Positions 7,816-38,496 of a DNA stretch of 64,000 nt are shown here, one piece after another. Source of the stretch: Streptomyces soli (GTDB lineage Bacteria > Actinomycetota > Actinomycetes > Streptomycetales > Streptomycetaceae); NCBI RefSeq assembly GCF_003999195.1, contig NZ_RJVR01000346.1, positions 1 to 64,000 of the forward strand, written 5' to 3'. Under the pieces are notes generated by a model. The model was not told the DNA's origin. It was given only the letters and a program-made list of their open reading frames with translations, and made no database searches. A program made the position numbers and the translations under genes. The number at the start of each line of letters is the position of its first letter. The first letter of the stretch is position 1.

Positions 7816-9353
7816 AAAAAGAAACCGGATATCCGGGTACCGATGGTTGGGAGAACCCTTTCGCAGCGGTGGGCCACCCCGTCTACGGGAAGAATCACGT
7901 CGGACGATTGGGTGACACCGAGGTGCTTCGGCAGAGGATCCTGCAACCCTCAGCAGTGGCCGGGGCGACCGCGATCGTAGGCCCACCTCGAATAGGCAAG
8001 TCCAGCCTTGCCTATCATATGTTGATGCGCCCCGAAGTACGCGAGCAGTATCCCCAGCTGCTGCCCGTCTGGATCAATGTCAGGACTCAGGAGAGTAGCG
8101 AACGATTGCTTCGCAAGCTCGTGGACGAACTATGGACAATGATCGAGGAATCAGGGGCTGATATCGTCGATGCGCCGCTATCGCGGCGCAGGGAGCGAGT
8201 CCTGGACTCTACCCGAGACTGGGCTGAACTACAGGACGATACTCAGCAGTTCCTGAAGCTGATCCGCCGCAGAGGTTGGAAGGCCGTTCTCATCCTCGAC
8301 GAGTTTGATTCCGCAAGAGAAGTATTCAAAGCACGACCTGGCACCTTCCAAGCCCTAAGGGAAATTGCATCCAATCCCGAGTGGAGCATCGGATTGGTGA
8401 CAACATCCCGTCGTGAGCTCCGCGAAATCGTTGATCGTGCGGATCCTGTCGAGTCCACCTTTCCTGGCATCTTCCGGGAAATTTATGTACGGTGCTTCGA
8501 CTCCCGCGAGATAGCCGAGTTGGTGGACCGAGCACCGGGCGCATCCACCAGTCCATGGCTTGCTCCCTTCCTTGCGAAACTCAACCGAATCACCGGCGGC
8601 CATCCCTATTTGGCAAGTATGCTCCTTGATCGATTGTGCACATTGGCACCTGTCGACCCACTAGTGCCGGAAAGCATCGATGTTGCGATATCCGATATGC
8701 GACCAGCCCTGCAGCACTATTATAATGACCTAGAGGCATTGTTGCGGGCCGATGGGCGCTTTTTGTCCTTGCTGGAAGTTCTTATGGGGCCACAAATAAC
8801 GGCTACCCAAGAAGATGCCGAACGCCTTCTGTATCAAGGCCTCATTCGGGCGGACGGTACCCGCTACCGCGCATTCTCAGATGATTTCGAGGATTATCTG
8901 GCTCTTGTCGGCCGCCAATCCGATTACTGGAGTAGTTGGGTGGCAGTGGAAACTTTGTTGCGGTCATTTGTCAGCGGCACCCTCACTGACGAACTTGGAG
9001 CGGATTGGCTCAATAAAGTGCGAAAGCAGCGGCCAAAATTGGTTTCTCTACTGGACTCCTGGGAGATGACGAGAGATCGAGAAATCTCCTCCTTCGGTGA
9101 TCGCGCCTCCAGGGAAATCCTCGATTACACTTATCCTCACGATCTATATGCTTTAATTGCCTCTTATTGGGAATATTTCGGCAAATTACTTGGCCGGGAT
9201 AAGAAATATTGGAATGATAGATTTGAAATATTGTCCAAAGTTCGCAATCCGATGGCGCACAACCGGATGTCTGTGATCACTTCAGCTGAGCGCGGCCTCT
9301 TCCACGCCTACTGCGACGAGATCCAGGAACTTCTCACCCCAATCCACCGCTGA
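7812..9353 (+). CDS. STAND ATPase with C-terminal HEPN (Swt1-like) RNase motif
   Basis: A 513-aa protein starting at the ATG that overlaps the upstream stop (MKKETGYPG). Residues ~15-300 form a STAND P-loop module: NPFAAVGHPVYG entry, Walker A IVGPPRIGKSSL (~56-65), Walker B KAVLILDEFDSA (~158), and helical follow-up GGHPYLASMLLDRL. The C-terminal ~90 residues are helical and contain RNPMAHNR at ~478, which fits the Rx4H active site of HEPN ribonucleases and resembles Swt1-type HEPN domains. HEPN domains usually cut RNA and act as toxic effectors. With the upstream STAND protein as likely sensor, this looks like an abortive-infection effector. Local GC is low, especially at 9120-9260, consistent with acquisition. 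Biochemical activity is inferred. Confidence 0.75.
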   Translation: MKKETGYPGTDGWENPFAAVGHPVYGKNHVGRLGDTEVLRQRILQPSAVAGATAIVGPPRIGKSSLAYHMLMRPEVREQYPQLLPVWINVRTQESSERLLRKLVDELWTMIEESGADIVDAPLSRRRERVLDSTRDWAELQDDTQQFLKLIRRRGWKAVLILDEFDSAREVFKARPGTFQALREIASNPEWSIGLVTTSRRELREIVDRADPVESTFPGIFREIYVRCFDSREIAELVDRAPGASTSPWLAPFLAKLNRITGGHPYLASMLLDRLCTLAPVDPLVPESIDVAISDMRPALQHYYNDLEALLRADGRFLSLLEVLMGPQITATQEDAERLLYQGLIRADGTRYRAFSDDFEDYLALVGRQSDYWSSWVAVETLLRSFVSGTLTDELGADWLNKVRKQRPKLVSLLDSWEMTRDREISSFGDRASREILDYTYPHDLYALIASYWEYFGKLLGRDKKYWNDRFEILSKVRNPMAHNRMSVITSAERGLFHAYCDEIQELLTPIHR

Positions 9354-10042: not shown

Positions 10043-11023
10043 CTACCACGTGGCCGTGGTGACCGCATGATGTTCCTTGATCACGTCACGATCCACCACG
10101 GCATCTACCGGAATTTGCAGGGTTGTGCCCTCCAACTCGCTGTACGAGACGTGACCCAGGAGGCTTGGGGCGACGCACACGACGAGCTCGCGGCTGATGG
10201 CCAACAACCCACCGTCGAAGAGTCGATGGATGTCCGCTCGCAGCAGCAGTCCTTCCTCGACCCGGTGCCGCTCCGTGGCGGCGAACGGACGAAGGTGAGC
10301 CGCCTCAAGTACCTCCGCTGGGGCTGGGCCTGTTATGGCACAGATCAATCCGTACCGACGAACGAGGGCCCTGCGGAAGGCATCCTGCCCCCGTCGAACT
10401 GCCGCTGTCATCCGCCGCCGGCCCCCCGGCAGTTCCAAGGGGTACTGTCGTGCTGCACCCGATGCTTGCCCTTGGCGCGGAAGGCAGACACCGCGCGCAG
10501 CCACTGCCGCGAGGGTCCGCGCCCGGTCGATTGCCTTGATCGACTGCTGGTCGGACTTGCTCAAGCTGAGCTCAGCCAGTTGAGCCTTGTCCATGCAGCC
10601 TTCGAAGGGTTGCCAGGTCCCTCCATAGTGAGCGCGGTACGCGGTCACCTGTATCGTCTCCACCTTCGGCCGGTCGAAAGCATTGCCGCAGGGACTGCAC
10701 CGGTAGCGGGGTTGTTCCGTCGTCCGCTCCTTGAACCCAGTGCTTCCGCAATGAGGGCATCGGCTTCGAAGCTTTTGTTGGTCCGGCAGGACCTCCAACT
10801 CCTCCACATAGCCAATGCCCAAAGCTTCGCGGCCGTTCCGTACAACCACCAGGTCGCCCACCGCAACCCGACGATGGTTACCCACGGTCGAGTCGTAGCT
10901 GTAGGACTCCTCCACCATGTCCTCGTAGCCGGCGTTCCCCTGGAACTGCCGTTCCTCGCCAGCGATCAAAAAAGACCAAGCTCCGCCATTTACGGCTGCT
11001 GCTGCAATGTCCACCCCGTCCAT
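10043..11023 (-). CDS. HNH endonuclease with N-terminal sensor-like domain and zinc ribbon
   Basis: A 326-aa protein from ATG 11023 (MDGVDIAAAAV). A TTG 51 bp upstream with a GGAGAGG site is an alternative start. Residues ~10-90 are beta-rich (VAVGDLVVVRNGREALGIGY) and look like a PUA/EVE-type or other nucleic-acid sensor module. A four-Cys zinc ribbon (CPHCG ... CSPC) follows. The C-terminus is an HNH nuclease: CAITG, VLEAAHLRPFA and LLLRADIHRLFDGGLLAI. Such proteins act in modified-DNA or other restriction. It is the last gene of the DISARM-like minus-strand series, separated from drmB by a gap of about 160 bp, so its link to that system is inferred. Confidence 0.75.
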   Translation of the reverse strand: MDGVDIAAAAVNGGAWSFLIAGEERQFQGNAGYEDMVEESYSYDSTVGNHRRVAVGDLVVVRNGREALGIGYVEELEVLPDQQKLRSRCPHCGSTGFKERTTEQPRYRCSPCGNAFDRPKVETIQVTAYRAHYGGTWQPFEGCMDKAQLAELSLSKSDQQSIKAIDRARTLAAVAARGVCLPRQGQASGAARQYPLELPGGRRRMTAAVRRGQDAFRRALVRRYGLICAITGPAPAEVLEAAHLRPFAATERHRVEEGLLLRADIHRLFDGGLLAISRELVVCVAPSLLGHVSYSELEGTTLQIPVDAVVDRDVIKEHHAVTTATW

Positions 11024-11186
11024 GGCGGGAGCATACGTGAAGTTCCCCCCTGATCTGACCTCGGAACAGCACAACAGGCAGCCTCTCCTGGTGTCCTGAC
11101 ACGGCGCGGCCAGCCCATCCCTGGCCCCGGCAGGGAATGAACCGCCCGCTGCCCGCTCACGGAGGCCAGGGTGAGGGCCAGGTCGG

Positions 11187-13037
11187 TCAGGGCGAGAAGA
11201 ATCCGACCGCGCTGCCGTCCGGGGCGCCGATCAGGGCCGCGCGGTCGAGGAGGGTGTTGTTGGTCTCGCAGCTGGTCTCCGGGAGCAGCACGCAGGCGTG
11301 GCACGCAGCGAGGTTGAGGCTGTCCGTTCCGCTGGCCTCGGACTCCATGCAGAGCGGGTCGTTGGAGCACCACTCGGCGCGCTGCAGCGCAGAGCGCAGG
11401 GCGATCTCGAGGCGACCGGGTTCCCCCTGGGCGACGATGCCGCCGAGGCTGCCAGCGGAGTCGCTGGTGGCGGTGTAGATGAGGATGCCCGCCATGTCGT
11501 CGGCCACGTAGAGCCGCTCACACAGCGATGCGGCCGGGTAGCCGCCGTCCAGGCTCCACTCGTTGATCAGGACATGGGCGAGCGTGTGCAGCAGGAGGTA
11601 CCGAGGGGAGGCCGGGGAGACAGGAACCGGCTTGTCCGAGTCGCCGGCCCGCTCGCGCAGCAGCGTCGTGTGACTTTCGTGAATGCGCTGCGCCCGGGCG
11701 AGGGGACCGGGCTGCTGCTCCCATTCCTTGAGCCGGCTGTCGTCCAGGCGCAGGAAGACTCCCTCGCCGCTGACTTCGATGGCTGGGAGCCAGTCGAGCT
11801 TTGGCTTTGCTGCCGACAGTGGGGCGCGACGGCGGACGTCGTCCGCTGCGCTGGGCTCCTCGACGCGGGTGAAGGTCTGCAGGGCCCGAACCTCGCGCAG
11901 TCGCTTGACGAGCATGACCTGGTCCAGTCCGTACTGTTCCTGCAGCGCCGAGTTGCCGGCGGCGGGCGGCTCGCAGACGAAGTCCTGGCTGCCGGCCTCC
12001 TCCCGCTCGGGGTGGTCCGTCTGCAGGCTGAGGTACTCCTCCCTGTAGATCGTTTCGCGGGCGGAGCTCTCCACGACGGGCTCGTCCGCGAGCTCGGCGT
12101 CCTCGCGTTTGAGTTTCTCCACCAGGGCGACGACCTCGGCGGGGGTGTACTCGGGGTGGTGGTCGAGGATCTTCTCGATCCGAAGGTACGCCAGGATGTC
12201 CGCCGGGCTCTCGTCCTTCAACTTGTCGTAGATCGGGGCGACGACCTTGGTGAGCCCGTCGCTCCACGGCGGGATGGACAGGGCCGAGTGGACGACGGGG
12301 AACCACACCGACGACGAACCTCGCTGGAGGGTGCGCGGCGGCTCCTCGCAGCCCCCTGCAGGAGCGCCCTTGATCCACGGACGCCTGCCCGAGCACCGGA
12401 CGCCGAGGTTCTTCAGTGCCTGCCGCCGGAAAGCGCCCTCCATGGAGACCTCCTTCGCGCCGCAGCTGCAGCTGATCAGGACGGCACGCAGCGAGGCCGT
12501 GGAGCCGTCTGCGCGGAACCTCAGCTCGCCGCCGCACAGGCCTCCGCCGGCGTGTTCGGTGTCCCTGTGGACCCACTTCCAGTACGGGAAGTCGTCGAGG
12601 TGCCCGTGGGCGCAGGCCATGACGAAGCGGGAGGGGACGAGGTCCTCCTGGCAGGTTGAACACTCGGCTTTGCCTGCCGGGGAGTTGAACTTGCGGAACG
12701 GCTGCAGCGCCCGGCACTCGGGACAGGAGTACATGAGGGGGAACCGAGCGGCGCGCACGCCGTCGGTTGCCAGGTCCGGGTCGGGCGCCGGAGGGAGGCG
12801 GAAGCCTTTGACACCGAGCGGCCGGGCGAGGCGCGGCTCCCAAATCCAAGGTGCCTCGGAGACGTTCCAGGAGTCGAGTCCGGAGATGATGAAGGACTCG
12901 TTCTCCACGGCGATCATGGCGCCCACGCCATAAGTGGTGATCAGCTGGGCACGGCGGATCTCGCCGAGCCTGCGCGCGTTGCGGACGGGGGCGGCGCCCA
13001 TGCCGCGGCGACGGGTGCGGGGCGGGAACGGGCTCAT
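11187..13037 (-). CDS. drmB: DrmB-like DISARM protein (DUF1998-containing)
   Basis: A 616-aa protein with ATG at 13037, 2 bp after the drmA stop. The N-terminus RLGEIRRAQLITTYGVGAMI is typical of DrmB. Four-Cys clusters follow (CPECRALQPF ... CSTCQEDLVPS, then FVMACAHGHLDDFPYWKWVH and ISCSCGAKEV). The C-terminal DUF1998 region has LLLHTLAHVLINEWSLDGGY and a final Cys-rich stretch CMESEASGTDSLNLAACHAC. DrmA and DrmB together are the core of DISARM, which blocks incoming phage DNA. Here no DrmC phospholipase-D gene follows. Confidence 0.85.
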   Translation of the reverse strand: MSPFPPRTRRRGMGAAPVRNARRLGEIRRAQLITTYGVGAMIAVENESFIISGLDSWNVSEAPWIWEPRLARPLGVKGFRLPPAPDPDLATDGVRAARFPLMYSCPECRALQPFRKFNSPAGKAECSTCQEDLVPSRFVMACAHGHLDDFPYWKWVHRDTEHAGGGLCGGELRFRADGSTASLRAVLISCSCGAKEVSMEGAFRRQALKNLGVRCSGRRPWIKGAPAGGCEEPPRTLQRGSSSVWFPVVHSALSIPPWSDGLTKVVAPIYDKLKDESPADILAYLRIEKILDHHPEYTPAEVVALVEKLKREDAELADEPVVESSARETIYREEYLSLQTDHPEREEAGSQDFVCEPPAAGNSALQEQYGLDQVMLVKRLREVRALQTFTRVEEPSAADDVRRRAPLSAAKPKLDWLPAIEVSGEGVFLRLDDSRLKEWEQQPGPLARAQRIHESHTTLLRERAGDSDKPVPVSPASPRYLLLHTLAHVLINEWSLDGGYPAASLCERLYVADDMAGILIYTATSDSAGSLGGIVAQGEPGRLEIALRSALQRAEWCSNDPLCMESEASGTDSLNLAACHACVLLPETSCETNNTLLDRAALIGAPDGSAVGFFSP

Positions 13038-13039
13038 GG

Positions 13040-16000
13040 TCACGACTCCAGGAAGAAGGTGGACGAGGCGTCGACGTCTCGAAGGCTCCACAGGGTGGGC
13101 CAACCGGCCGTGTCGTGCGGGTCGTCGTCGAATCCGCTGAGCAGGGCGGGGATGCGGCTGCTGCGTCGGGCCTCGTAGACCAGATTCGGCTGTGCCACTG
13201 CCTCGGTCTGCCACCAGGAGACGAAGGCGTCGAAGGCGCGGGCCGTGGGTGTTACCTCGGTCCCGGTGTTGTCGACCGTGGCCACGCGGGCGAGGACGAT
13301 GGGGCGGACGAGGGCGTTCAGGTCATCGACGAAGGCGTCGATGTCCCGCGCGGCCTCGTTGCGGCGGGCGTCCGGCAGCAGGATTCTGGCGAGGGCCACG
13401 ATCACTGCGTGCAGCCCGCGGTCGCGGGCTCGGGCGGAGAACGGGGTGACGCTGGTGGACTCCACTTCCCGGTAGAGCGCGGAGTGGAAGTGCTGAAAGC
13501 TCTCGTAGTGCGAGCGGTCGCGTGAGCGGGTGGAGTTGAGCATCACCGCTACCAGGCCGGGGTGGCGCCGTCCGACGCGGCTCGTCGCCTGGATGTATTC
13601 GGCGGTGGTCTGCGGCTGGCCCATGACGGCCATGAGGCCGAGTCGGTCCACGTCCACGCCGACGGAGATCATGTTGGTGGCGAGCAGCACGTCCAGGACG
13701 TCCGACATCGGCAGGTGCCGTTCGACCTCCTTGAGTCGCTTGGGGATGTCGCTGGCGTTCGCCCGACTGCTGAGCTCGGTGAGGCCGTCGATCCGGCGGG
13801 GCTTGACCCCGTCGCGGGTGGCCAGGTACTCAAGGCGGTCCTGAACGTCATCGAGCACCTGGAGCTCCGCCGCGGACAGCAGACGCAGGCTATTGAAGTA
13901 GCCGACCAGGGTCCAGTAGGCGTCCTTCACCTCGTCCGGCGCCTCGCAGGTGAGCGCCCGGTGGAGCAGGGCGGCGTAGACCCGGATCAGCAGGGTCGAC
14001 TGGCTGGTGGTGGACGTGAACAGACCGATGTAGCGGCGGGCGGCCTTGCGGTCCCGAGTCGTCTCCACGGCGAACCAGGAGTCCCGGGAGTCCAATCCCC
14101 CGGGCGGGAACTGGCTGACCTTGCGACCGAACAGGTGATTGCCCTGCTCGTCGGCACGGCGAATGGTGGCGGTCGAAGCGATGACCTTCGGCTGGTCGGC
14201 GAGGGCGTCGACAACGGTCTCGTACAGGCCCGTGAGCGTGCCCAACGGGCCGGAGATCAGGTGAAGCTCGTCCTGGACGATCAATTCGGGCGGCTTGGTG
14301 CCGTCCTCGCGGTCACGGTTGAACAGGGCTGCTGTCGCGGGCCGCCAGGGCATGGCGGCGAACTTGTCGACGGTGGCAATGATGAGGGTCGGACGGGCGT
14401 GGTAGACCGCCTCGTCGATGAGGTGCACCGGAAGGCCGGGGTGGAAGTCGCAGGCTGAGTTCGGGCAGCGGATCGCCATCCTCAGCAGGTGTTCCTCCAC
14501 CTCGTAGTTGTTGGCGTCCAGGGCGGTGCCGCACCACGGGCAGGCCTCCAACTGGACCGGGTTCTCCTTCTCCAGGCGCTTGCCGGGACTGACCCGAAGC
14601 TCGGTGAGCTTTCTGGCCGCGTTCTCCAGCGTGTTGGGAGTGGCGGACTTCCCGACCCACATACCGATGGAGACCGGCTCACTCCCCAATGTCTTCGGAT
14701 CCATGGCGCGTCTGCGCTCCATCGCGCAGATCAGCGCGGCGGCGCGCTCGAACTGCTGGAGCGTCAGCAGACGGAGTGTGTAACGCATGAGCACCGTGAC
14801 GCCGGCGCCTGCCGCACCGTCGCGAATGCGGCGAAGGAAGGTGGTGAAGGCGATCAGCCCGAGGTAGGCCTCGGTCTTGCCGCCGCCGGTGGGGAACCAG
14901 AGCAAATCGGCGATGCCGCGATCGGCGTGGTTGGCGTCGACGATGCCTTCCAGGCACAGCAGCAGGAAAGAGATCTGGAAGGGGCGCCACTTCCCCTTCT
15001 CGACGGCGGGGACTCCCGGTTTGCCGTCCTTGATCCATGAGGTGCGGGCGCGCTGCTCCGCCATGGCGAGGTTAGCGAGCCGGAATGCTTTCATGATCTC
15101 GGGCCGGCGAGGGTCGGCCAGCAGGTCCACACCGCGGTGCATCCGCTCCAGGGTCCGCCGGCACAGCGCGAGCTGTTCTCGGGCGGCCTCCTCGTGCTCG
15201 CCACCGCGGAGGCGTTCCGCTTCGGCCGCCTGGGCGCCGATCCATGCCTCGTAGCCGACCAGCAGACCGCGCAGCGCGGCGATGATCTCGACGTCGGGCG
15301 CGGTGCCCAGTCCCTGCATGGTCAGCGCGCGGTCGTCGATCTCAGGGTTGGAGTCGGTGAGCAGCACCTCGTGGGAGGGGACGAACTCGGTGCGCACGGC
15401 GGCCACGGCAGCTCGTTCGCGGCCGCTCGCGCCGATCGGCGGCGGGGTCCAGTCCCAGCGGGCCGCACAGCCGTGGCCGGTCGCAAAACTGGGGGCGTGA
15501 CGGTGGAGCAGGCGGCTGAGCGCCTGCTCCTTGTCTACAGCGCCGAGGGCAGCCGGGCGCTCCACGAACGGGGCGGGGCAGCCGTCCGGGGCGGTGACCT
15601 CCAGGACGGGCTGGTAAAAGCAGTGGGCGTCGCGCAGGTCGAACCTGCCCACTCGCAGGCTGTTGACCACCGTGGCGGTCACCGTCACCGTCCCGTGCGG
15701 TCCGGTCGCCGGGCGTGCCACAACGCGCAGCTCCAAGCCCGGGTGGAGGGTTACGGGCTCGTGAGCGTGGGGGACGGTGACGTCCACGGTGACAGGGTCC
15801 AGATGCAACGCGACACGACGCCAGTGCTCCCGCTGTTCCTCGGTGCTGCGGACCTCGGTGCGGCGGGCAGAGATCGGGTTGCCCTCGGCGTCCTCGGGCG
15901 CATACGTGGCCGCGCGGACGGTCAACACGATGCTGCCGCTGGTCGCGGGATCCACAGCAAAGGTCAGGCCCATGGAGGAGGGCCTGCGGGTGTTGGCCAG

Positions 16001-16279
16001 GGCGACACCCAGGTCCGGGGACGGCTCCTCGCTGTCCCGGCGGGCGGTGAAAGGGGTCTCGTCCTGGCCGTCGGCTTCGGATGCCGCGTCGGAGATCTCC
16101 GCCCGGGCCTCGTCGTCCTCGGACTGGGGGAAGAGTACGCCGACCGGGTAGACGGTGATCGGAGCGTCATCCTTGAGGATCTCGTGTTCGCCGCCGACCG
16201 GTCCGAGCAGGTCGGTGCGAAGCGCCTCCAGAAGCTGGTCGCGCAACGTGTAGTGGGCCATGTAGTCCGGTGCGCTCAC
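13040..16279 (-). CDS. drmA: DrmA-like DISARM SF2 helicase
   Basis: A 1079-aa protein starting with GTG at 16279 in a GTGA overlap with the UvrD-like gene. Residues ~1-450 are a non-catalytic N-terminal region. The helicase core has Walker A WFPTGGGKTEAYL (~460), the DExH box VQDELHLIS (~665), motif III ASTATIRRAD and motif VI QATSRVGRRHPG (~895). A Cys4 insertion lies between motifs I and II (CPWCGTALD ... CPNSACDFHPG, ~575-605). This matches DrmA, which with DrmB surveys and blocks invading DNA. The length is usual for the family. Confidence 0.85.
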   Translation of the reverse strand: MSAPDYMAHYTLRDQLLEALRTDLLGPVGGEHEILKDDAPITVYPVGVLFPQSEDDEARAEISDAASEADGQDETPFTARRDSEEPSPDLGVALANTRRPSSMGLTFAVDPATSGSIVLTVRAATYAPEDAEGNPISARRTEVRSTEEQREHWRRVALHLDPVTVDVTVPHAHEPVTLHPGLELRVVARPATGPHGTVTVTATVVNSLRVGRFDLRDAHCFYQPVLEVTAPDGCPAPFVERPAALGAVDKEQALSRLLHRHAPSFATGHGCAARWDWTPPPIGASGRERAAVAAVRTEFVPSHEVLLTDSNPEIDDRALTMQGLGTAPDVEIIAALRGLLVGYEAWIGAQAAEAERLRGGEHEEAAREQLALCRRTLERMHRGVDLLADPRRPEIMKAFRLANLAMAEQRARTSWIKDGKPGVPAVEKGKWRPFQISFLLLCLEGIVDANHADRGIADLLWFPTGGGKTEAYLGLIAFTTFLRRIRDGAAGAGVTVLMRYTLRLLTLQQFERAAALICAMERRRAMDPKTLGSEPVSIGMWVGKSATPNTLENAARKLTELRVSPGKRLEKENPVQLEACPWCGTALDANNYEVEEHLLRMAIRCPNSACDFHPGLPVHLIDEAVYHARPTLIIATVDKFAAMPWRPATAALFNRDREDGTKPPELIVQDELHLISGPLGTLTGLYETVVDALADQPKVIASTATIRRADEQGNHLFGRKVSQFPPGGLDSRDSWFAVETTRDRKAARRYIGLFTSTTSQSTLLIRVYAALLHRALTCEAPDEVKDAYWTLVGYFNSLRLLSAAELQVLDDVQDRLEYLATRDGVKPRRIDGLTELSSRANASDIPKRLKEVERHLPMSDVLDVLLATNMISVGVDVDRLGLMAVMGQPQTTAEYIQATSRVGRRHPGLVAVMLNSTRSRDRSHYESFQHFHSALYREVESTSVTPFSARARDRGLHAVIVALARILLPDARRNEAARDIDAFVDDLNALVRPIVLARVATVDNTGTEVTPTARAFDAFVSWWQTEAVAQPNLVYEARRSSRIPALLSGFDDDPHDTAGWPTLWSLRDVDASSTFFLES

Positions 16280-18249
16280 AAGTCGCTCTCTTCCGGGAAT
16301 CCGTGGTCAATGACGTCTGTGGCGGCGTCCGTGTTCCAGTCGAAGCGCCCCATGCCGCAGAGGCGGACGGCCAGCCAAACACCGTGGTCGCCGAGGCCGG
16401 CGCGCTCCGTGGCGGCGGCGGAGCCGGCCACGCTCTCGACGCCGTCCACTCGCAGACCCGTGATCAAGGCGGGCCAGGGGCGGTCCAGCGCGGCGCCACC
16501 GCGCCGTAGGAGTCGGCACAGGTCACGGCGGAACTGCTCCGAGACCTGTCCGACCTGCCGTTCCTCGTGCAGCATGGCGTAGGGCGGGGACTGTTCCTCG
16601 CCGGCTGGCAGCTGGTGCAGGAGTCGCAGTTCCACGGCCTCGCCCGCCCGGATCGAGGTGCGTAGGTACTTTTGCACCTCGACCGCGTCGTGATGCATGC
16701 CGCGGGCTCCGTGCGGGGCCTCGTGGCAGACGTCCGTGCCCAAGGCCTCCAGACCGTTACGGGCCCACTTGCTGCGACCGCCGAGGTACCAGCGATCCAG
16801 CCGCCGGTCCTTGCGGTAGAGCCACGTCGACGGAGCCTCCAACCGGTAGAGGTCGTCGCGGGGGCGCGTCATCGCCACGTAGAGCAGTCGCGCCTCTGCG
16901 GCAGGGTCGTAGTCGTACTTCTTCTTGGGCACCTGGCGCGGAGCCATGAGCGTGCGCGGCTCGATCACCAGCACGCGATCGAACTCCAGGCCTTTGGCCC
17001 GGTGCACGCTGGAGATCACCAGCGGCGAGGGCTCCGGCGCAGTGATCTCGTCGGGCAGTCTGCCCTCGGCCAGCGCGCGGTACAGGGCACGCATATCCAG
17101 GGTGGCCCGCGGGCCTCGGGCCACCCGGCGTGCGGACTGCCACAGCTCATCGAGCGTGGCACCCTCGGGCAGCACCAGCTCGTCGTTCTTATTCGTATCG
17201 AGGAGTCCGGCGAATCGTTCATACGTGATCTGCGAGGCCTCGGTACCGGTCAGCAGCGCCGCCATCCAGGAAGGGGCCGGGCGGTCGCGGGTGGAGCGCT
17301 GGAGCCGGTGGGCCACGCCCCCGTCCGCCAGCAGACCGGATACGTGCAGCACCTGGCCGTTGTCCCGGCACAGGACCGCGGTCGTCCCCGGAAACCAGCG
17401 CAGCGAATCCAAGGTGAACTCGTCCGTGAACTTCCCGAATTCCGGCGCCTCCAGCAGTGAGGCACGCAGCTCGGCGTGGATGCGCTCTGCGGCCTCGGCC
17501 GCCCTGTCGGGGTCGCGGGGCAACTGCTGGAGGCGGGGGCCCAGGGGCAGTGCGACCCGCGACTGGACGGTGCGGGCTCGGAAATTGTCCGAGAGATGCA
17601 GTTCGGTCAGGTCCTCGGAGAAGGTCCCGCGCAGCCAGTCGAAGAAGTAGTTGGTCTCGGCGGCACGCTGTTCCGGGTCGGAGACCTGGAAGCCGTAGAT
17701 GGACTGGGCCGCATCGCCGACAACGGTGAAGCCGCAGTTGTCCGCGAACCGGTCGAGCAGGGCCTGGACCATCTCACGGCGGACGCCGACCAGGTCTTGG
17801 ACCTCGTCGATCACCACGTGTCCGGGTGCACCCTGCTCGCCTGCCTCCAGGACGCCGCGATCGATGGCCTCGCTCGCGGCAACGATCCGGTCGTCGAATG
17901 ACACGCCCGTCCAGTCGGTGTCCGGGTAGGCCTGCTTGAGCAGGCTGGTCGCCCAGGAGTCGAAGGTCTGTGCTCGGACCCGACGTGCCGCGGTGGCGTG
18001 GCGGTCGATCCGTTCCCGCAGGTCTCGGACGGCGGCGCGGGAGAAGGTGAGGACGAGGATCTCTGCAGCCTCCAGCTCCTCGCGCTCCACCAGAACGTCG
18101 AGGCGTCGCACCAGGGTGTAGGTCTTGCCCGCGCCCGCCCCGGCGGTGACCAGTACCCGGGCGTCCCAGGGCTGGTCGACCACCGTCTGCTGATGCAATG
18201 TCAGCACATGCTCCTCGAAGTCTTCGAGGGTCACTTGTCTTCGCTCCAC
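16276..18249 (-). CDS. UvrD/Rep-type SF1 DNA helicase
   Basis: A 657-aa protein. Walker A VTAGAGAGKTYTLVRRL (~33-48), motif Ia LTFSRAAVRDLRERI, motif II VVIDEVQDLVG (~143), motif III VVGDAAQSIYGF, motif V SSVHRAKGLEFDRVLVI and motif VI LLYVAMTRPRDDLYRL are all intact, so an active 3'-5' helicase or translocase is expected. It overlaps the GHKL-helicase gene by 19 bp and drmA by 4 bp, so the three are translationally coupled. UvrD helicases accompany GHKL ATPases in several defence operons but are not part of the classical DISARM core. Confidence 0.85.
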   Translation of the reverse strand: MERRQVTLEDFEEHVLTLHQQTVVDQPWDARVLVTAGAGAGKTYTLVRRLDVLVEREELEAAEILVLTFSRAAVRDLRERIDRHATAARRVRAQTFDSWATSLLKQAYPDTDWTGVSFDDRIVAASEAIDRGVLEAGEQGAPGHVVIDEVQDLVGVRREMVQALLDRFADNCGFTVVGDAAQSIYGFQVSDPEQRAAETNYFFDWLRGTFSEDLTELHLSDNFRARTVQSRVALPLGPRLQQLPRDPDRAAEAAERIHAELRASLLEAPEFGKFTDEFTLDSLRWFPGTTAVLCRDNGQVLHVSGLLADGGVAHRLQRSTRDRPAPSWMAALLTGTEASQITYERFAGLLDTNKNDELVLPEGATLDELWQSARRVARGPRATLDMRALYRALAEGRLPDEITAPEPSPLVISSVHRAKGLEFDRVLVIEPRTLMAPRQVPKKKYDYDPAAEARLLYVAMTRPRDDLYRLEAPSTWLYRKDRRLDRWYLGGRSKWARNGLEALGTDVCHEAPHGARGMHHDAVEVQKYLRTSIRAGEAVELRLLHQLPAGEEQSPPYAMLHEERQVGQVSEQFRRDLCRLLRRGGAALDRPWPALITGLRVDGVESVAGSAAATERAGLGDHGVWLAVRLCGMGRFDWNTDAATDVIDHGFPEESDL

Positions 18250-21200
18250 AGGTAGTCGAACTCGGTGAAGGCCAACTTTTCCTTGTAGTTCTTGATGTTG
18301 TCGGCCAGATTGAGGATCAGACAGGTGGGCTCACCACCATTGCGGGGACCGCGCAGGCCACGGCCGATCATCTGCTGGTAGACGTTCGGGCTGTAGGTGG
18401 GACGGGTGACCACCACGGCGCGGGTCGCCGGGGCGTCGAAGCCCTGGGTAAGCACACCGTAGTTGGTGAGGACCTTGATCTTGCCCCCGCGGAAGTCCTC
18501 GATGGCCTTGCGGCGCTCGGCCATGGGAGTCGCAGAGTCGATGGCGGCAGCCCGGATGTTGCGGTCGCCGAGCTTCGCCGCGAGGAACTTGGCGTGCGCT
18601 ACTGAGGTGGCGAACACCAGGACCGGCCACTCGGGGTCCATCTCGGCGATACGGTCCACGATGCGCTTATTGCGGTTGTGGTCGTCGGCCAGTCGCTGCT
18701 CTGCGCCTTTGGGGAGCATGCCACCGAACTGCTTGGAGCGGCTCAGCTCGTCTGCGCTCAGAGTGATCTCACCGCCGACCAACTCCTCGTGCTCGACCTG
18801 CGCCAGCACGCCGATCTCCTGCAGGTGCTTAATCGCCTTGGTCTGGTCCCCGTTGAAGATCGGCGTCTCGATGAGCGCACCAAAGCGCTGAACCAGCCGC
18901 CTGGTCAGCTCCACATTGCTGCGGAACGGGGTGGCGGTGAGTCCGATAAGGTGGCGACTCGTCCTGTTCCGTACCAAGCTGAGTCCCAGGAGTTCCAGAA
19001 GCTCCGTGTAGCGCGCCGAGATGGCGACATGGGCCTCGTCCACGATCACCAGTGCGGAGCGGCGGAGCCAGGCATAGTCGTCCGTACCGAGGCACACCTG
19101 CAACTTGGCGTCGGTGGCCACGACGAGGTGCGGATGGCCCTGCACGGGGGAGGCCTCGTTGCTCGACCAGAGCCGACTGATGACCAGCGGCATCTCGGCC
19201 CCGACCTTCGACCAGACGAAGCGCCAGCTCTGGACAGCCTGCTCGCACAATTCCTCCGTCTGCGCGATCCAAAGGATCGGCCCGGGCAGGCTTCCCTGCT
19301 GGCGAACCCAGCGGATCACTCCCTCGGAGGTGACGCGGGTCTTGCCGGCCCCGGTCGGCATGGTGAGCATGGCACGCTGCGGCGTGGGGTTGTCGAGCAT
19401 GGTGTGCAGGGCGCGAGCCAGCTCCTCCTGGTAGTCGTGCAGCGCGGGGAACTCCGACGGTCCCTCGATTTCGATACGCGGTGACAGCGACGGGACACGG
19501 GCACCGGCGAACGAATCGGGGAAGCCAAGGTCCGTGACGAACTTCAGAGCCTTGGTGTCGCCGGTGAACGTATTAGGAGCGATGCCCGGGTAGTCCACGG
19601 CCAAGTCCTTGCGGTGGACGCGCAGGATCGACTCGCCGTGGGCGTTGAACGCCATCTCCGCGACGCGGCGCGCATCGGGTTCCCGCCCGTGCTCGTTGAC
19701 CTCACTTTCCAGAAGGCCCGGCGGCAGCTCGCTGCGCAGCTGCTCCTCCCCGAGCAGGAGAGCGATCTTGTCGATGATGCTCTCCGCCTCCAGGACCTGG
19801 CGGAGCTTCGAGCGGACTTCCAGGTTCTGCTCCTGACGCTTCTGGTGGTCGATCAGTTGGCGGCAGCCCTGCGCTTCGAGGCCCCAACCGAACTCGGCGT
19901 CCGCCGCCTCGAGAACGTCGAGCGGGGAGAGTCCGTCGAGGACCAGCAGGGTGCTGCCCTCGCGTGCAACGGTCATCGGGATCAGCCGGCTGCCGTTGGG
20001 CGTGCGCAGCGTCTGCTCCAGCTCGGTGCAGCGACGCACCTTACGGTTCAGCGCCGGGGCTCCGACGCGCTGCCGCAGCGGCGGGAACTCGTCCACCAGG
20101 AGGGTCGCACTACCCACCGGAACCTTGCGGATCGTCTTGGTGATGACGTCGGCGACTTTGCGCATCCCCCAGGTGTCGTACATCTGACGGGCGGCAGCAG
20201 CGTCGGACTTGTCCGCGACGAGAAGGGCCGGATACTGCTCAAGCACCAACTCCCGGAAGTCCGCTTCGCTCGTCGCGACCGCGATCTCGGTGTCCGGACG
20301 GGTCCCCCATCCGGCACCGATCCGGCAGCGGGTCCGCACATCCTCGGGAAACTCGAAGCCGACGCGCAACAAGAGAGCATAGGCGCGGCCGATGTAGACG
20401 TCGTCCGTGCTGATCAACACGCTGTCGAGAAGCTTGCGCCAACGAGCGGGCGGCACCTCCTCGGGCGTAGTGGGCAGCTTCAACCGCTTGGCCTTCTCAG
20501 CGCTGATCTCCGCCACGGGAAGCACCCGAGCAAACTCCTTGAGCTGGGGGCCGACGGCCTGGTTGAGGGGAACCAGACCGGCGCTCGTGCGGACGCGCCC
20601 GTACTTGGAAAGCATCCACCGAAGCGGGGAAGCGACGGTCTTGTCTCCCGTCGACCCGTAGCGGCGGATCCAGCTCTCGACAACCCCGGCTTCCGGGATG
20701 GCTTCGACAAACGCTGCACGCCCTTCGTCGGACAGCAGGGTCAGCAGATGGAGCGGACCGGCAGGAGCGCTGCCCTCGACCGTCAGGCGCCCCAGGCCGG
20801 GGCGCGCGGCGTCGGCAGGCAGCCTGCGGATGTAGGCATCGTGCACGGCTTGGCGGTAGTCCTGGAACCAACCCTCCTTCTCAGGGCTGTGATTCAGGCT
20901 CGGGATCTCGGCAAGGCCGAGCTCGCGGAAGACGTCCTGGTCATCGGCGTGGAAGTCCATGTCGACCGCGATCGAGGCATCTCTGCTTCCGTCGCTGGGT
21001 ACGACCGGGCCCGGCAGCAGGCAGTCACGCATGACACGGAAGGAGCCGCCCACGGTGCGCACCCTGAGAGTGGCCAGAGGGTTGGCTACCTTCGCCTGAA
21101 TCCGTCCGACCTGGGTACCGCTGCCCGCGCTGCGCAGCAGCACCCAGAACTGGGTCCAGGCGTCAGAGGCGTAGCGGTCGAAACCCTGGTCGAGCAGGCC

Positions 21201-23027
21201 CTCGAAGCGTCCCTGGGCGTCGGATATACGGATGCCAATGGCGTGCAGATGACGAGCCATTTCCGGACGCTCGGAGATGTGCGGGTGGACATATACGACG
21301 TCGTCGCGACTCTGCTCCGCACCGGTGCGGTGATAAACCTTGCCGGAGACGGGCGCGACGAGGCCGTGGGACTCGGTCAGCACGATGCGAGCCTTACGGG
21401 CCTCTGCGGTCAACACGGAGTCAGCGCTCCGGCGCTCGGCACGGTCCTTCTCGACCATTGCGGACAGAATCCGGATGGCGTGAGCCGAAGCCTCCGGCGT
21501 GCCGTCGGCCACCAGAGCCTCAAGCCAGGTCACCACGCTCTCGCGCGACTGCTTCTTCACCGCGAGGATGTGGGTCATCTTGCCGGAGCGCATGTCGCCC
21601 CCCTCCTCAACGGAGGGGTGCACCCAACCTTTCGGGCGACGGGGGTACTCCGCCCAGATGCGCAGCCAGCGAGCCTCCACCTCCTTCGGATGGATGTACA
21701 GCTCGTGAGGCACCCGGAGCACGCCGTCCTGATCAGGCAGCGACGGCTTGCGGGCGGCAACCTGCCACACCTGGCGCAGCAGGTAATCGTCCGCCCAGTT
21801 GATGAACTCCTTCTCACGGCCCGGGAGCAGCGGCAGATAGGCGCCGGGGTCCTCGGCCGGGGCCAGACGAGGCAGGGAGTCGATGACCAGGTTGGCCGCG
21901 ACCTCCATCAGCTCCTGGTTGAACTCGCTGCCGTCAAGGAGGTTCTGACGGTCCTCATTGGTTTTCCACGCCGCATTGAGGTAGCCCGAGAGGGACATGG
22001 GGTACTTGGTCGGGAAGAACGACCAGAACTCCCCGGTGCCGCGCGGGACCGTCAAAAGACCGTCCTTGTTCCGGGTGTACTCGGGCACCGCCCAGGAGAC
22101 ATCGATGACCCCACGGTCGTGCAGCTCCCCGGCGCTCTGGCGCGCGTGGGCGGTCGGGGAATGCTCAACCGAGTACACCTTCCAGTCGTGCATCTCCTGC
22201 TTCGCGCCGGTCCGCACCTCGGTGACGGTCCGATGGGCACCCTCGGTGACCACCTTGAGCTCACGGCGGAAAAGCGGACTGCGCCGCCGATCCTCCAGCG
22301 TCACCTCACCAACGTGGGAGGAGAAGATCTGGAAGCCGATCGGGAACGGCTCGACGAGGTGCCGCCCCTCGGCGTCCCTGTGACCTGCGATGTCGTACCC
22401 CAGGCGCTCCGCGCTGCCGGGCAATAGCGGGAGACGGACGACGGTCGTCGCCCAGCGCAGCAGCGACCGCAGCACAGAGTCGCCGTCGCATTCCTCCTCC
22501 ATGTCCAGGGGACGCGCCATGCGAAGCACCGGGGTGTCCATGTCGTCGACACGGGGCCGGCCGAGCACAGTGGCGATCTCGTGTGCCGACCATCCGCGGT
22601 CGAAGCCGAAGCAGCCGGTCCTGCTGAAGAACTGAGGCGCGTCACTCACCGAAAGCACGGACTTCACGCCCACGCCGAACCGGCCGATCTGCCCGCCACG
22701 CTTACGGGAGACACTCATGCGTAGGATCGTTTCCGCGCCCTCCGGAGTCACCGGCGTGCCCTGGTTCGCGCAGTAGAGGTAGTCGTCCGTCAGCACGACA
22801 TGAAGCTTCCCGCCCGGGGCATCGGCGATCTCATCGGCGCCGTTCTGGACGAGTTCGAACAGCTGTCGGTCGCCGTAACCACCTTGGGTGATGCGACGCT
22901 CGTTGTTCGCGTGCTCCTGCACCAGCCCAGGATCAACTCGATAGGTCTCCAGAACCCGAGCGGACTGCTCAAGTACCTTCGCGATGACAGGGGAAATGGA
23001 GGTGACGGTGGACTGCCGGTCGCTCAT
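18231..23027 (-). CDS. GHKL (HSP90-like) ATPase fused to an SF2 helicase
   Basis: A 1598-aa protein; I chose ATG 23027 (MSDRQSTVTSIS) over upstream codons because the added 45 residues look non-coding. The N-terminal GHKL ATPase has N-box RQLFELVQNGADEIAD (~54-69) and G2 box GRFGVGVKSVLSV (~114), of the sacsin/HSP90-like type. A ~900-residue middle region has no motif I recognise. The C-terminal SF2 helicase has LTMPTGAGKTRVT (~1220), VIVDEAHVAIS (~1326), GLTATPFRS and YQQMIGRGLRGPR (~1550). A GHKL clamp joined to a helicase suggests an ATP-gated DNA sensor that moves on duplex DNA. It opens the minus-strand operon with UvrD, DrmA and DrmB. Confidence 0.8.
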   Translation of the reverse strand: MSDRQSTVTSISPVIAKVLEQSARVLETYRVDPGLVQEHANNERRITQGGYGDRQLFELVQNGADEIADAPGGKLHVVLTDDYLYCANQGTPVTPEGAETILRMSVSRKRGGQIGRFGVGVKSVLSVSDAPQFFSRTGCFGFDRGWSAHEIATVLGRPRVDDMDTPVLRMARPLDMEEECDGDSVLRSLLRWATTVVRLPLLPGSAERLGYDIAGHRDAEGRHLVEPFPIGFQIFSSHVGEVTLEDRRRSPLFRRELKVVTEGAHRTVTEVRTGAKQEMHDWKVYSVEHSPTAHARQSAGELHDRGVIDVSWAVPEYTRNKDGLLTVPRGTGEFWSFFPTKYPMSLSGYLNAAWKTNEDRQNLLDGSEFNQELMEVAANLVIDSLPRLAPAEDPGAYLPLLPGREKEFINWADDYLLRQVWQVAARKPSLPDQDGVLRVPHELYIHPKEVEARWLRIWAEYPRRPKGWVHPSVEEGGDMRSGKMTHILAVKKQSRESVVTWLEALVADGTPEASAHAIRILSAMVEKDRAERRSADSVLTAEARKARIVLTESHGLVAPVSGKVYHRTGAEQSRDDVVYVHPHISERPEMARHLHAIGIRISDAQGRFEGLLDQGFDRYASDAWTQFWVLLRSAGSGTQVGRIQAKVANPLATLRVRTVGGSFRVMRDCLLPGPVVPSDGSRDASIAVDMDFHADDQDVFRELGLAEIPSLNHSPEKEGWFQDYRQAVHDAYIRRLPADAARPGLGRLTVEGSAPAGPLHLLTLLSDEGRAAFVEAIPEAGVVESWIRRYGSTGDKTVASPLRWMLSKYGRVRTSAGLVPLNQAVGPQLKEFARVLPVAEISAEKAKRLKLPTTPEEVPPARWRKLLDSVLISTDDVYIGRAYALLLRVGFEFPEDVRTRCRIGAGWGTRPDTEIAVATSEADFRELVLEQYPALLVADKSDAAAARQMYDTWGMRKVADVITKTIRKVPVGSATLLVDEFPPLRQRVGAPALNRKVRRCTELEQTLRTPNGSRLIPMTVAREGSTLLVLDGLSPLDVLEAADAEFGWGLEAQGCRQLIDHQKRQEQNLEVRSKLRQVLEAESIIDKIALLLGEEQLRSELPPGLLESEVNEHGREPDARRVAEMAFNAHGESILRVHRKDLAVDYPGIAPNTFTGDTKALKFVTDLGFPDSFAGARVPSLSPRIEIEGPSEFPALHDYQEELARALHTMLDNPTPQRAMLTMPTGAGKTRVTSEGVIRWVRQQGSLPGPILWIAQTEELCEQAVQSWRFVWSKVGAEMPLVISRLWSSNEASPVQGHPHLVVATDAKLQVCLGTDDYAWLRRSALVIVDEAHVAISARYTELLELLGLSLVRNRTSRHLIGLTATPFRSNVELTRRLVQRFGALIETPIFNGDQTKAIKHLQEIGVLAQVEHEELVGGEITLSADELSRSKQFGGMLPKGAEQRLADDHNRNKRIVDRIAEMDPEWPVLVFATSVAHAKFLAAKLGDRNIRAAAIDSATPMAERRKAIEDFRGGKIKVLTNYGVLTQGFDAPATRAVVVTRPTYSPNVYQQMIGRGLRGPRNGGEPTCLILNLADNIKNYKEKLAFTEFDYLWSEDK

Positions 23028-23515
23028 GAATACCTGCTTCAGCGATTGGTCGGTGGGACGAGGTGGGGGTCGGCGGAGCCGGTACAAGTCCGGCCGCTGA
23101 CCAACGCGGGAAAGCTCTCGACTACTTTTCGAACCTGGAGAGATGAGGAAGCGGATCATCACGCGCGCACCTCACAAGAACCCGTGCTCCTGCGGGTGCC
23201 CGCGCTGGGGCGGACTACGGGCCGCCCGAGCGGGAGATCGCGACATCGGCGAACTCTCGTGCGGCCAAGGGTTGCAGGCACACTCCCCTCGCCACCTCAG
23301 ACTCCTGCCAGGTAGGCCATCGCCGAATCTGCTCTATGGCAATACCTAGCGGGCCAAGAAAGAACTCGACGCGCCGCTAGGCATCCTCGATACTGTTGTA
23401 CGGCCTGAGGGTCCAGGTAATTCTAATACTCCTGAAGTCCATCAAGAAATTGCCCCCACCCGACTCCGATATGGAAAAACCCTGACCCAGCTACACAGTT
23501 TCCTCGCCGGGCCCA

Positions 23516-23546
23516 CCACGCCGCGTACAGACTATCCACGCCGCGT
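23516..23546. repeat. Two 11-bp direct repeats with 20-bp period
   Basis: CCACGCCGCGT occurs at 23516-23526 and 23536-23546, start-to-start 20 bp, about two helical turns. This geometry suits cooperative binding of a regulator such as the adjacent HTH protein. The function is a guess. Confidence 0.4.
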
Positions 23547-23937
23547 TAAATCTTGCTCCCGCACAGGTTCCACGTCCGATTGAAGACAGACGCCTGCCCA
23601 CACAGAGTGAAATACTAAGCCTGTTTTCCCCGAAGAATATGACTCTCCCCTAGCGCCAGAAACTACACCCGCTACTCGGTCGGTGCCACCCTTTTGCATT
23701 TCTTGCGGATAACAAATAGATCTCAAGTCGGATACGGAACCCAGCACGATTCGGGGTGCTCTGCACATCAATCACCCTGCCTCCCCGGATCCTTCACATC
23801 CAGACGCCTTAGCCGCAGGCCTCGACTGCACACGTTCACAACCTAGACCCCGCCACTGACAGTGCGTCCCCAATAGATCATCCGTTCTGCCAGGCGGGGT
23901 GCTGGCGCCCTCCGGTAATCACTGCGTCAAGAGTTGT

Positions 23938-23959
23938 TTGACACTGGAAAACTTGTCAA
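23938..23959. promoter_or_regulatory. Inverted repeat upstream of the HTH-GHKL gene
   Basis: TTGACA (23938-23943) and TGTCAA (23954-23959) are perfect inverted arms with a 10-bp spacer, about 80 bp before the ATG at 24042. TTGACA also equals a consensus -35, though no -10 lies at 17 bp. It is a candidate operator for self-control by the XRE-type HTH encoded just downstream. Confidence 0.45.
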
Positions 23960-24041
23960 TTGCCCCTGCTAGCATGGCGTGCACTAGGCATACTCAGCCT
24001 CCCCAAGGCGAGTTGAGGCCGCAGTTGGAGGAGTTGCGCCC

Positions 24042-28038: not shown

Positions 28039-28079
28039 ACCGAAAGGTCTCTCGTGGACGCACACCGGAGGAAACCACT

Positions 28080-28145
28080 GTGGATTCACAGGTGTTGAAG
28101 CGATTCCGCATGGAGCTCCCTCAAGCCTGGCGTCCGCTGAGATAA
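28080..28145 (+). CDS. Tiny ORF after a good ribosome-binding site, perhaps a gene remnant
   Basis: GGAGG lies 8 bp before GTG 28080, which opens 21 codons (VDSQVLKRFRMELPQAWRPL) to a TAA inside the end of the convergent methylase gene. It may be the start of a fourth gene in the trio cut off by the methylase operon. Evidence is weak. Confidence 0.25.
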   Translation: MDSQVLKRFRMELPQAWRPLR

Positions 28146-29344: not shown

Positions 29345-29425
29345 GGGTGGGAGTTTAATGGATCACGAGGCCCACCGGTCCCTCTTGCACCCATCGTTGT
29401 CACGTCGATGCCCGCTGCCCGAGAC

Positions 29426-36476: not shown

Positions 36477-36529
36477 CCGCGCGGAGACCGCGGGCGAGGA
36501 CGGTACAAGGGCCATAGCGCTCATTCTCC

Positions 36530-38311: not shown

Positions 38312-38467
38312 GTTCGGGGCCTCTTTCAGGGCACGACGTGACTGGGCCCGCTCCGGACAGCGCCCAACAGCGTTCGTCCAGAGCGGGGCTGCGCCGGAGG
38401 TTAGCCGCGTTTTCCGGCCTCGCCTAACGAACCTGTGCCCTGCTCTGGGCCGGGGTCCGGCGGTCGT

Positions 38468-38496
38468 TTGGTGCGGCCGCAATCCCGGTCTACTGT
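38468..38496 (+). promoter_or_regulatory. Candidate sigma-70-type promoter for the transfer operon
   Basis: TTGGTG (38468-38473), a 17-bp spacer and TACTGT (38491-38496) match -35 and -10 elements with ideal spacing. It lies in the divergent region between the methylase gene and the NlpC/P60 gene. An ATG follows 6 bp after the -10, but the frame it opens is not convincing as protein. Confidence 0.4.

Follow-up and report, generated by a model that had tools for sequence, protein, structure and literature searches.

The first 64,000 bases of a 123,572-base contig (NZ_RJVR01000346.1) in the 9.4-Mb genome of Streptomyces soli (RefSeq assembly GCF_003999195.1), referred to here as the window, carry a four-gene operon built around DrmA and DrmB, the core pair of the defence island system associated with restriction–modification (DISARM). 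All four genes lie on the reverse strand, in the order sacsin-RadD helicase, UvrD helicase, DrmA and DrmB. Core gene 1 (P0001; 18231–23027, 1598 amino acids (aa), ATG at 23027) encodes an N-terminal sacsin-type GHKL ATPase domain joined to a C-terminal RadD-like superfamily 2 (SF2) helicase, and core gene 2 (P0002; 16276–18249, 657 aa) encodes a superfamily 1 (SF1) helicase of the UvrD family with a conserved C-terminal domain. Core gene 3 (13040–16279) encodes DrmA, a YprA-family SF2 helicase in its short form, and core gene 4 (11187–13037) encodes DrmB, a DUF1998/MZB protein; both features of the DISARM core, the DrmA helicase and a DrmB with DUF1998/MZB, are present. Genes 1 and 2 overlap by 19 bases, gene 2 and the DrmA gene by 4 bases, and a gap of 2 bases separates the DrmA and DrmB genes. 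An earlier reading made from the letters of the DNA alone (the sequence-only reading) had listed clear DrmA and DrmB, a GHKL-SF2 helicase fusion and a UvrD-like helicase in four overlapping or nearly abutting genes, and each of these identifications was borne out by the searches described below.

Twenty window proteins were scanned with PADLOC, four of them represented by their best 25 families only, and complete NCBIfam lists were obtained for eight proteins. Core gene 1 scored 65 bits against the NCBIfam model P_loop_sacsin (cut-off 50), its C-terminal part matched RadD (6jde) with 120 bits in a profile search, and helicase motifs I and II as well as the GHKL glycine box were invariant in 14 aligned rows. 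Core gene 2 matched the GajB models of PADLOC, and its fold search returned chiefly UvrD/PcrA/Rep, AdnAB and GajB; a nuclease domain in this protein was considered and rejected, as none was recognised by the fold search of the whole protein, in which the C-terminal domain was not searched by itself. DrmA reached 995 bits against the NCBIfam model DISARM_DrmAS (cut-off 950) and 569 bits against the solved class I DrmA (7s9v_A). For DrmB, the scores were 489 bits against DrmB_fam (cut-off 240), 274 bits against 7s9v_B and 34.6 bits for the Pfam MZB domain (cut-off 24.2).

The neighbourhood of this operon was surveyed in 293 genomes of the order, the present one included. Per genome, the best two candidates were scored for DrmA and core gene 1, three for the accessory protein P0008 described below, four for core gene 2, seven for P0005 and, across the whole order, at most nine for the family model DrmC_I, and further copies may escape these counts. 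DrmA matches at E ≤ 1e-30 were found in 99 of the 293 genomes, and the places where they lie are labelled here as groups A, B and C, with pieces of one gene merged manually. The DrmA of the window belongs to clade A, found in 32 genomes with its own; the other 31 share 55–72% identity at no less than 1146 bits, and the next full-length DrmA falls to 581 bits and about 40% identity, with short pieces of others reaching up to 59%. DNA around DrmA was fetched for 23 of the 41 clade B places and 11 of the 38 group C places, and the reads around the clade A relatives mostly span about 37 kb, shorter where contigs end. A second sample, the named loci, comprised the best 79 of 292 relatives retrieved in a scan with an alignment of gene 1, and it overlaps the 293-genome set (locus L148 is genome G222); most of these reads stop about 10 kb upstream. 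Presence in both samples was counted by tblastn with weak matches included, and genes in the relatives were called with a simple in-house caller that is wrong at some loci, such as G013.

All four core genes were matched in 31/31 clade A relatives. Full-length homologues of gene 1 numbered 40 in the 293 genomes, none of them farther than 15 kb from a DrmA (32 in clade A, 8 in clade B, the group at about 40% identity), and homologues of gene 2 at E ≤ 1e-40 occurred in exactly the 32 clade A genomes. The named loci gave the same picture, with gene 1 in 79, gene 2 in 78, DrmA in 77, DrmB in 76 and all four in 76 of the 79; at two of the incomplete loci (L154 and L181) the core is interrupted by a contig end. 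These loci carry 16 genus names, including Streptomyces, Rhodococcus, Nocardia, Amycolatopsis, Actinomadura, Pseudonocardia, Herbidospora, Nonomuraea, Actinoplanes, Planotetraspora and Kineosporia, all 16 of which we take to belong to Actinomycetota. In a DrmA tree of 66 rows, built by a quick method with long branches flagged, clade A formed one group with a Shimodaira–Hasegawa-like approximate likelihood ratio support of 97; L083, first placed in the long DrmA group, fell with clade B. The proposal of a distinct DISARM-like subtype with a GHKL-helicase and a UvrD helicase is upheld by this survey, in which the two are constant partners of DrmAB (31/31 relatives and 76/79 named loci) and the neighbours are not random.

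Partial matches to gene 1, confined to its helicase part, were found seven more times: two adjoin a group C DrmA, and the other five have no DrmA nearby. L090 and L093 have, close to a group C DrmA, a RadD-like helicase frame of about 600 aa whose similarity to gene 1 is confined to the C-terminal part of that gene; gene 1 may stem from a fusion.

The gene junctions and the motor motifs are conserved as well. Across the clade A loci, with the window included and G013 omitted, genes 1 and 2 overlap or lie at most 20 bases apart in 31/31, gene 2 and the DrmA gene in 29/31, and the DrmA and DrmB genes in 19/31. The motor motifs of the core helicases are intact. DrmA keeps motifs I, II and III and a lysine at the K803 site in 31/31 rows of the same set, and 31/31 rows have an acidic, variable segment where the trigger loop of class I lies, the sites having been mapped by manual counting on the alignment; the K803 site and the trigger loop are described as class I DrmA features in PMC9142583.

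The sequence-only reading had seen no DrmC, DrmD or DrmE at the locus, and the searches recognised none either. None of the three occurs in the PADLOC lists of the 20 window proteins (best 25 families for four of them) or in the complete NCBIfam lists of eight, and DrmMI is equally absent from the former. For the two proteins that might conceal a DrmE, none was listed in the complete NCBIfam lists of core genes 1 and 2, in the PADLOC list of gene 1 or among the best 25 of 49 PADLOC families of gene 2. The best DrmC_I score in the genome is 20 bits against a cut-off of 133, the search for DrmC being limited to the DrmC_I model and an HKD pattern of low sensitivity. As a positive control, the same model found 42 matches at E ≤ 1e-12 in the 293 genomes, 35 of them above the cut-off. 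Thirty-two matches adjoin a DrmA, always of group C (38 places, mostly long DrmA that match in pieces), three above the cut-off have no DrmA match nearby, and none lies beside a clade A (0/32) or clade B (0/41) DrmA. A DrmC hidden within the operon was accordingly rejected by the DrmC_I family search. A motif scan of called genes, extended to six frames in the window, found no DrmC at the core and is a weak test that recognised DrmC at 2 of the 11 group C loci; it returned one chance match, in G278, to a gene of the accessory trio described below. Nor does a drmC of the same operon lie just beyond the window, the case that would have spoken against a separate subtype: the window begins at base 1 of the contig, two opposite-strand genes separate the cassette from that edge, and the genome holds no DrmC_I match above the cut-off. 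The loss of DrmC is less dramatic than the sequence-only reading implied, because DrmC is reported to be non-essential and often missing in annotated DISARM (PMC9142583). We call the class a DrmC-less DISARM-like variant, DISARM-like in its working as far as DrmAB goes.

The same data bear on the idea that the operon is an ordinary class 2 DISARM, in which DrmE (gene 1 or gene 2) and a hidden DrmC have diverged past recognition. It would agree with a DrmA that passes the short-form DISARM_DrmAS cut-off, with the C5-methyltransferase homologues nearby, one of which (MT2, below) matches the DrmMII models at E 2e-49 and the DruM and MTase_II models with higher scores, and with the frequent lack of DrmC in annotated DISARM. 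We regard it as quite unlikely: gene 1 is a sacsin and RadD-like protein and gene 2 a UvrD helicase, neither of which has DrmE in its complete NCBIfam list, and the DrmC_I model, which finds 32 partners of group C DrmA, finds none beside clade A or B, a result with which the insensitive motif scan agrees.

The gene that follows DrmB (10043–11074, minus strand) encodes an HNH_2 protein (Pfam, 43 bits), which the sequence-only reading had put forward as a replacement for the usual nuclease. The open reading frame (ORF) and its HNH_2 match are real, and the gene begins 112 bases after the DrmB stop on the same strand; this position and the nuclease family speak for the proposal. Its membership in the cassette did not hold. 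No homologue was detected at the loci of the 31 clade A relatives or at the 79 named loci, the gene after DrmB changes from locus to locus, and in 22 other genomes that have HNH homologues none adjoins a DrmA, as judged by comparing coordinates by eye. The HNH protein was thus rejected as effector or replacement nuclease, an HNH enzyme standing in for DrmC is very improbable, and we judge the gene to be a neighbour outside the cassette.

On its other side, the cassette extends further than the sequence-only reading had drawn it, with partners at 24042–30409 and 36096–36512 that recur at most loci. A divergent intergenic region (23028–24041) separates the core operon from three plus-strand genes, the trio; the corresponding region measures 401–1373 bases in 30 loci by the in-house gene calls. 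No RNA family reached its gathering score anywhere in the window. Trio gene 1 (P0008; 24042–26126) encodes a helix-turn-helix (HTH) protein (HTH_3, 50 bits) with GHKL-like motifs that resembles PDC-M33A in PADLOC, a name family, PDC-M33, that was not met in the open-access full-text literature. Trio gene 2 (P0009; 26123–27100) encodes a 325-aa protein of unknown family with a predicted beta-sandwich and a helical domain (predicted local distance difference test score 90); its fold had no match in the PDB at E ≤ 0.001, only weak ones, many of them to antibody chains. Trio gene 3 (27097–28038) encodes a DUF6339 protein similar to PDC-M33C (Pfam, PADLOC). Convergent to the trio, on the minus strand, lie MT2 (28121–29344), a C5-cytosine methyltransferase with GGPPCQ and ENV motifs (PADLOC, Pfam and motif reading), and MT1 (29426–30409), a C5-methyltransferase homologue with GLPRVKS-like letters in place of the catalytic PC motif. 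A Vsr-type endonuclease (Pfam Vsr, 62 bits, cut-off 27) is encoded further on (36096–36512, minus strand). A GHKL domain in P0008 was sought in Pfam (E ≤ 10), in 18 members (E ≤ 1) and by a PDB profile search, and was not confirmed, as these found essentially the HTH alone.

Among the clade A relatives, the trio was matched in 30/31, MT1 in 28/31 and Vsr in 27/31 (absent in G071, G222, G012 and L055). At E ≤ 1e-5, the named loci contained the HTH-GHKL-like gene in 69/79, trio gene 2 in 69, the DUF6339 gene in 68, MT1 in 70 (65 strong) and Vsr in 60. The loss of the PC motif from MT1 is general, having been seen in 76/76 rows (E ≤ 1e-40 in 90 sequences searched) from both Drm loci and the Z1 loci described below. 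The window type of the second methyltransferase (at least 268 bits) is present in 15/79 named loci, and most clade A relatives have a diverged one; the tally of 71/79 for MT2 comprises these 15 strong matches and 56 others of at most 86 bits, which partly cross-match MT1. A second methyltransferase was called in 39 of 42 loci, with GGPPCQ in 36 of the 39, the motif being absent from G217, G170 and the short call in G117.

Between MT1 and Vsr, the window holds a second restriction module on the minus strand, made up of a Z1 helicase (30454–33396, PADLOC), a DUF4420 PD-(D/E)XK protein (33428–34462) and an MzaB-like GHKL protein (34416–35945; HATPase_c_3, 87 bits). The MzaB, MzaC and MzaD models match window proteins, and neither MzaA nor MzaE came up among the proteins scanned. 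A further DNA methyltransferase-like ORF (37565–38629, minus strand; PADLOC MTase_II, about 199 bits) possibly belongs to this module. Trio gene 1 protein was found in 47 genomes, 31 times beside a clade A DrmA, six times beside clade B and ten times away from any DrmA. All ten sets away from DrmA are joined to Z1, six of them in full with MzaB, DUF4420 and Z1 and four ending inside Z1. Z1 together with MzaB stands beside the Drm core in the window and in 4/31 relatives, and at least 14/79 named loci show a Z1 match, which scores no less than 332 bits in 11 of the 14. The count is a lower bound, with most of these reads reaching just about 10 kb upstream, and hybrids with Z1 are not rare. With the same counts, Z1/Mza genes as a fixed part of the Drm cassette are not supported. 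The set also joins another DrmAB type: five of the six clade B loci with it were fetched (L065, L069, L075, L076 and L078), and all five have the set with DrmA and DrmB. By the in-house gene calls, four of them encode an SF1 helicase from a cluster in which the members examined carry a NERD domain, and three encode a further SF1-like ATPase. Eight loci combine gene 1, a helicase of the NERD-SF1 cluster and DrmAB in the absence of gene 2. The Z1 and Drm modules are partly alternatives and partly companions, as all ten trio copies away from DrmA have Z1 and both modules are found in the window and in some relatives.

Two further readings concern these modules. According to the first, the accessory set belongs solely to the Z1 (Mza/paraMORC-type) module and the Drm core is a mere neighbour. 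The ten trio copies with Z1 away from DrmA, the presence of Z1, DUF4420 and MzaB in the window, the Z1 and MzaB matches in relatives and named loci, many of the latter at the edge of the read, and a trio–core distance correlation (r 0.82–0.92) below those within the trio and within the core all speak for it. We consider it rather unlikely given that 26 of the 30 clade A loci with the trio show no Z1/MzaB match in the stretch read, that the divergent trio/core layout recurs in named loci of several genera and that the trio also accompanies the DrmAB type of the five clade B loci. According to the second, the loci form a modular restriction platform, in which one front end of C5-methyltransferase homologues (one of them cysteine-less), Vsr and trio judges DNA as foreign and licenses interchangeable motors; we hold this to be possible and put it forward tentatively. 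The back ends might then be Z1/PD-(D/E)XK, NERD-SF1/DrmAB or sacsin-RadD/UvrD/DrmAB, and the last of these could, with similar reserve, be imagined to act without a nuclease of its own by unwinding and stalling phage replication intermediates.

Combining the operon, its conservation and its neighbours, we lean modestly towards the reading that the cassette is an Actinomycetota anti-phage system related to DISARM, with a conserved operon and a usual accessory set, without recognisable DrmC, DrmD or DrmE, in which self is marked by methylation and DrmAB and its partner motors act on phage DNA. The anatomy is well supported from sequence, conserved and wider than first described. A role in defence is likely for a cassette known here from its sequence, which in the window sits in the surroundings of a defence island (the Mza-like module, an AspBHI-like enzyme and STAND proteins). 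In the mechanism that we propose, the active methyltransferase, perhaps helped by MT1, would methylate host DNA and so mark self, and Vsr may repair T:G mismatches arising from deamination of 5-methylcytosine (5mC) or supply nicks. An acidic loop resembling the class I trigger loop would keep DrmAB in check until it loads on phage DNA that is single-stranded or exposes a 5'-overhang. Where the DNA is branched or nicked, the sacsin-RadD protein and UvrD might load together with DrmAB and unwind the DNA or strip it, so that phage replication would be blocked. Degradation could follow by host nucleases, by Vsr or, in the window, by the PD-(D/E)XK enzyme of the Z1 module. The trio accompanies motor modules of two kinds and is for this reason taken as a putative regulator or sensor. 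For DISARM, it has been suggested that phage DNA is blocked or that nucleases are recruited (PMC9142583), and PMC2292703 reports restriction operons that combine GHKL ATPases and helicases with cytosine methylases and Vsr, draws a parallel to MutL/Vsr/UvrD and proposes looping and unwinding roles for the GHKL ATPases.

Several observations weigh against this proposal. Residues of about 450–1190 of gene 1 have no Pfam match above cut-off and no nuclease was recognised in any of the four core proteins, and the killing step is for these reasons a guess. One named locus, L200, is a genuine exception to the conserved core, in which the gene 1 homologue is followed by an unrelated ORF before the contig ends. 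The accessory set is frequent and not obligatory, as trio, MT1 and Vsr are missing at some loci: G012 lacks the trio, G071, G222 and G012 lack MT1, and 10/79 named loci have no trio gene 1 match, two of those being short upstream. At G012, nine other neighbours were scanned and included kinase, oxidoreductase, sigma-factor, TPR and Imm5-like proteins, among which no substitute was recognised. The second methyltransferase is not one family across loci. GHKL in trio gene 1 is our own motif reading of invariant letters, to which the libraries lend no support. The pairwise distances of the four core proteins correlate at r 0.95–0.97, and with those of MT1 at 0.64–0.74 (62 loci), which speaks for the core as a unit, and all such correlations are inflated by shared ancestry. 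The apparent parallel to the trigger loop consists in position and acidity alone. Finally, RadD, UvrD, Vsr and the DrmA/MrfA family have roles in repair too.

The last point leads to a reading in which the cassette serves DNA repair, not defence, as a MutL/Vsr/UvrD-like pathway tending 5mC-bearing DNA. The ingredients are at hand, with Vsr, C5-methyltransferase homologues, a GHKL ATPase, UvrD, a RadD-like helicase and a DrmA of the YprA/MrfA family, and the parallel to mismatch repair and very short patch repair is that of PMC2292703. Against it stand the patchy distribution (32/293 genomes), the defence island around the cassette, the complete cores of G071 and G222 with neither an MT1 nor a Vsr match, and the split DrmA/DrmB, an arrangement that the YprA survey in PMC12458937 gives as consistent only in DISARM; we therefore find a pure repair function unlikely, and favour the DISARM-related anti-phage system.

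Other defence-like genes were seen in and beyond the window. Two neighbouring STAND-type NTPase genes (3361–9353, plus strand) encode proteins of 1484 and 520 aa, with nSTAND1, and with nSTAND2 and a Swt1-like HEPN, respectively, in a stretch of lower G+C content (57–64% in 2-kb blocks); they may form a defence gene pair of their own. An AspBHI/Mrr-like modification-dependent restriction enzyme (PADLOC mREase_II, 740 bits) lies beside a GHKL-domain protein (54069–55391, minus strand, and 55534–57525, plus strand), and its sharing a genome with C5-methyltransferase homologues raises the question of self-cutting. At L066, L070, L071, L072 and L077, a protein of 970–1300 aa precedes the DrmAB operon, with sigma-70 regions 2–4 in L072, the sole one tested, and four of these five loci have an adjoining divergent protein of about 2,100 residues, with kinase, DEAD helicase and MZB domains in L070, again the sole one tested; this is a different DrmAB arrangement, perhaps with its own sigma factor. 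At L073 and L080, the DrmAB operon has a sigma-factor-like gene upstream, and McrBC-like genes and a UvrD-like helicase lie divergent to it, the domains being those of L080 only.

The gene set was not found described in the open-access full-text literature, a search outside which most subscription papers lie. It offers natural material for the study of DrmAB defence without DrmC and of the role of GHKL ATPases in restriction loci. The different motor modules on one methylation- and sensor-like set make the split between self-marking and attack testable by module exchange, and the methyltransferase homologue, cysteine-less in 76/76 rows, lends itself well to work on a possible role as a sensor or as one of two methylation subunits.

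Among known systems, Gabija resembles the cassette through gene 2, which matches GajB models and finds GajB in its fold search, and differs from it in that PADLOC listed no GajA for the window genes scanned and gene 2 is strictly paired with DrmAB. ARMADA type II likewise has a YprA-family helicase in an operon with a methyltransferase and a GajB-like UvrD helicase, and is described in PMC12458937 with BrxHII, PglX, a YprA protein with a C-terminal Vsr-type nuclease and a RelE-fused UvrD; BrxHII, PglX and the other ARMADA features are absent from the lists of the scanned window genes, where DrmA and DrmB are separate genes. The descriptions of ARMADA, BRIGADE and TALON in that source set the cassette apart from all three, and a term search of its main text returned neither GHKL nor Streptomyces. 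The MORC/paraMORC operons of PMC2292703 and Mza have in common with the locus that GHKL ATPases occur together with SF2 helicases, cytosine methylases and Vsr, and the window brings an MzaB-like GHKL protein, a Z1 helicase, DUF4420, MT1/MT2 and Vsr into one neighbourhood, its Z1, DUF4420 and MzaB genes matching Mza models; DrmA/DrmB and the sacsin-RadD/UvrD pair are not mentioned in the consulted portions of PMC2292703. With DISARM class 1 (DrmA, DrmB, DrmC, DrmD and DrmMI), the cassette has in common a DrmA and a DrmB that match the solved pair over most of their length; its DrmA also has the helicase motifs, the K803 lysine and, where class I has its trigger loop, an acidic loop. In contrast, the match of the window's DrmA begins at residue 136 of the class I protein, and neither DrmC nor the SNF2 helicase DrmD was found, sacsin-RadD and UvrD being present instead. 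With DISARM class 2 (DrmE, DrmA, DrmB, DrmC and DrmMII), it shares a DrmA that passes the short model and a nearby C5-cytosine methyltransferase; unlike that class, it was found without DrmE and DrmC and has an extra cysteine-less methyltransferase homologue, Vsr and the trio. DISARM types I and II of PADLOC require DrmC, and by the gene lists stated in PMC9252829 the cassette is outside both. It defines a recurring DISARM-like class of Actinomycetota that would be missed by gene rules, such as those of PMC9252829, that want DrmC together with DrmD or DrmE.

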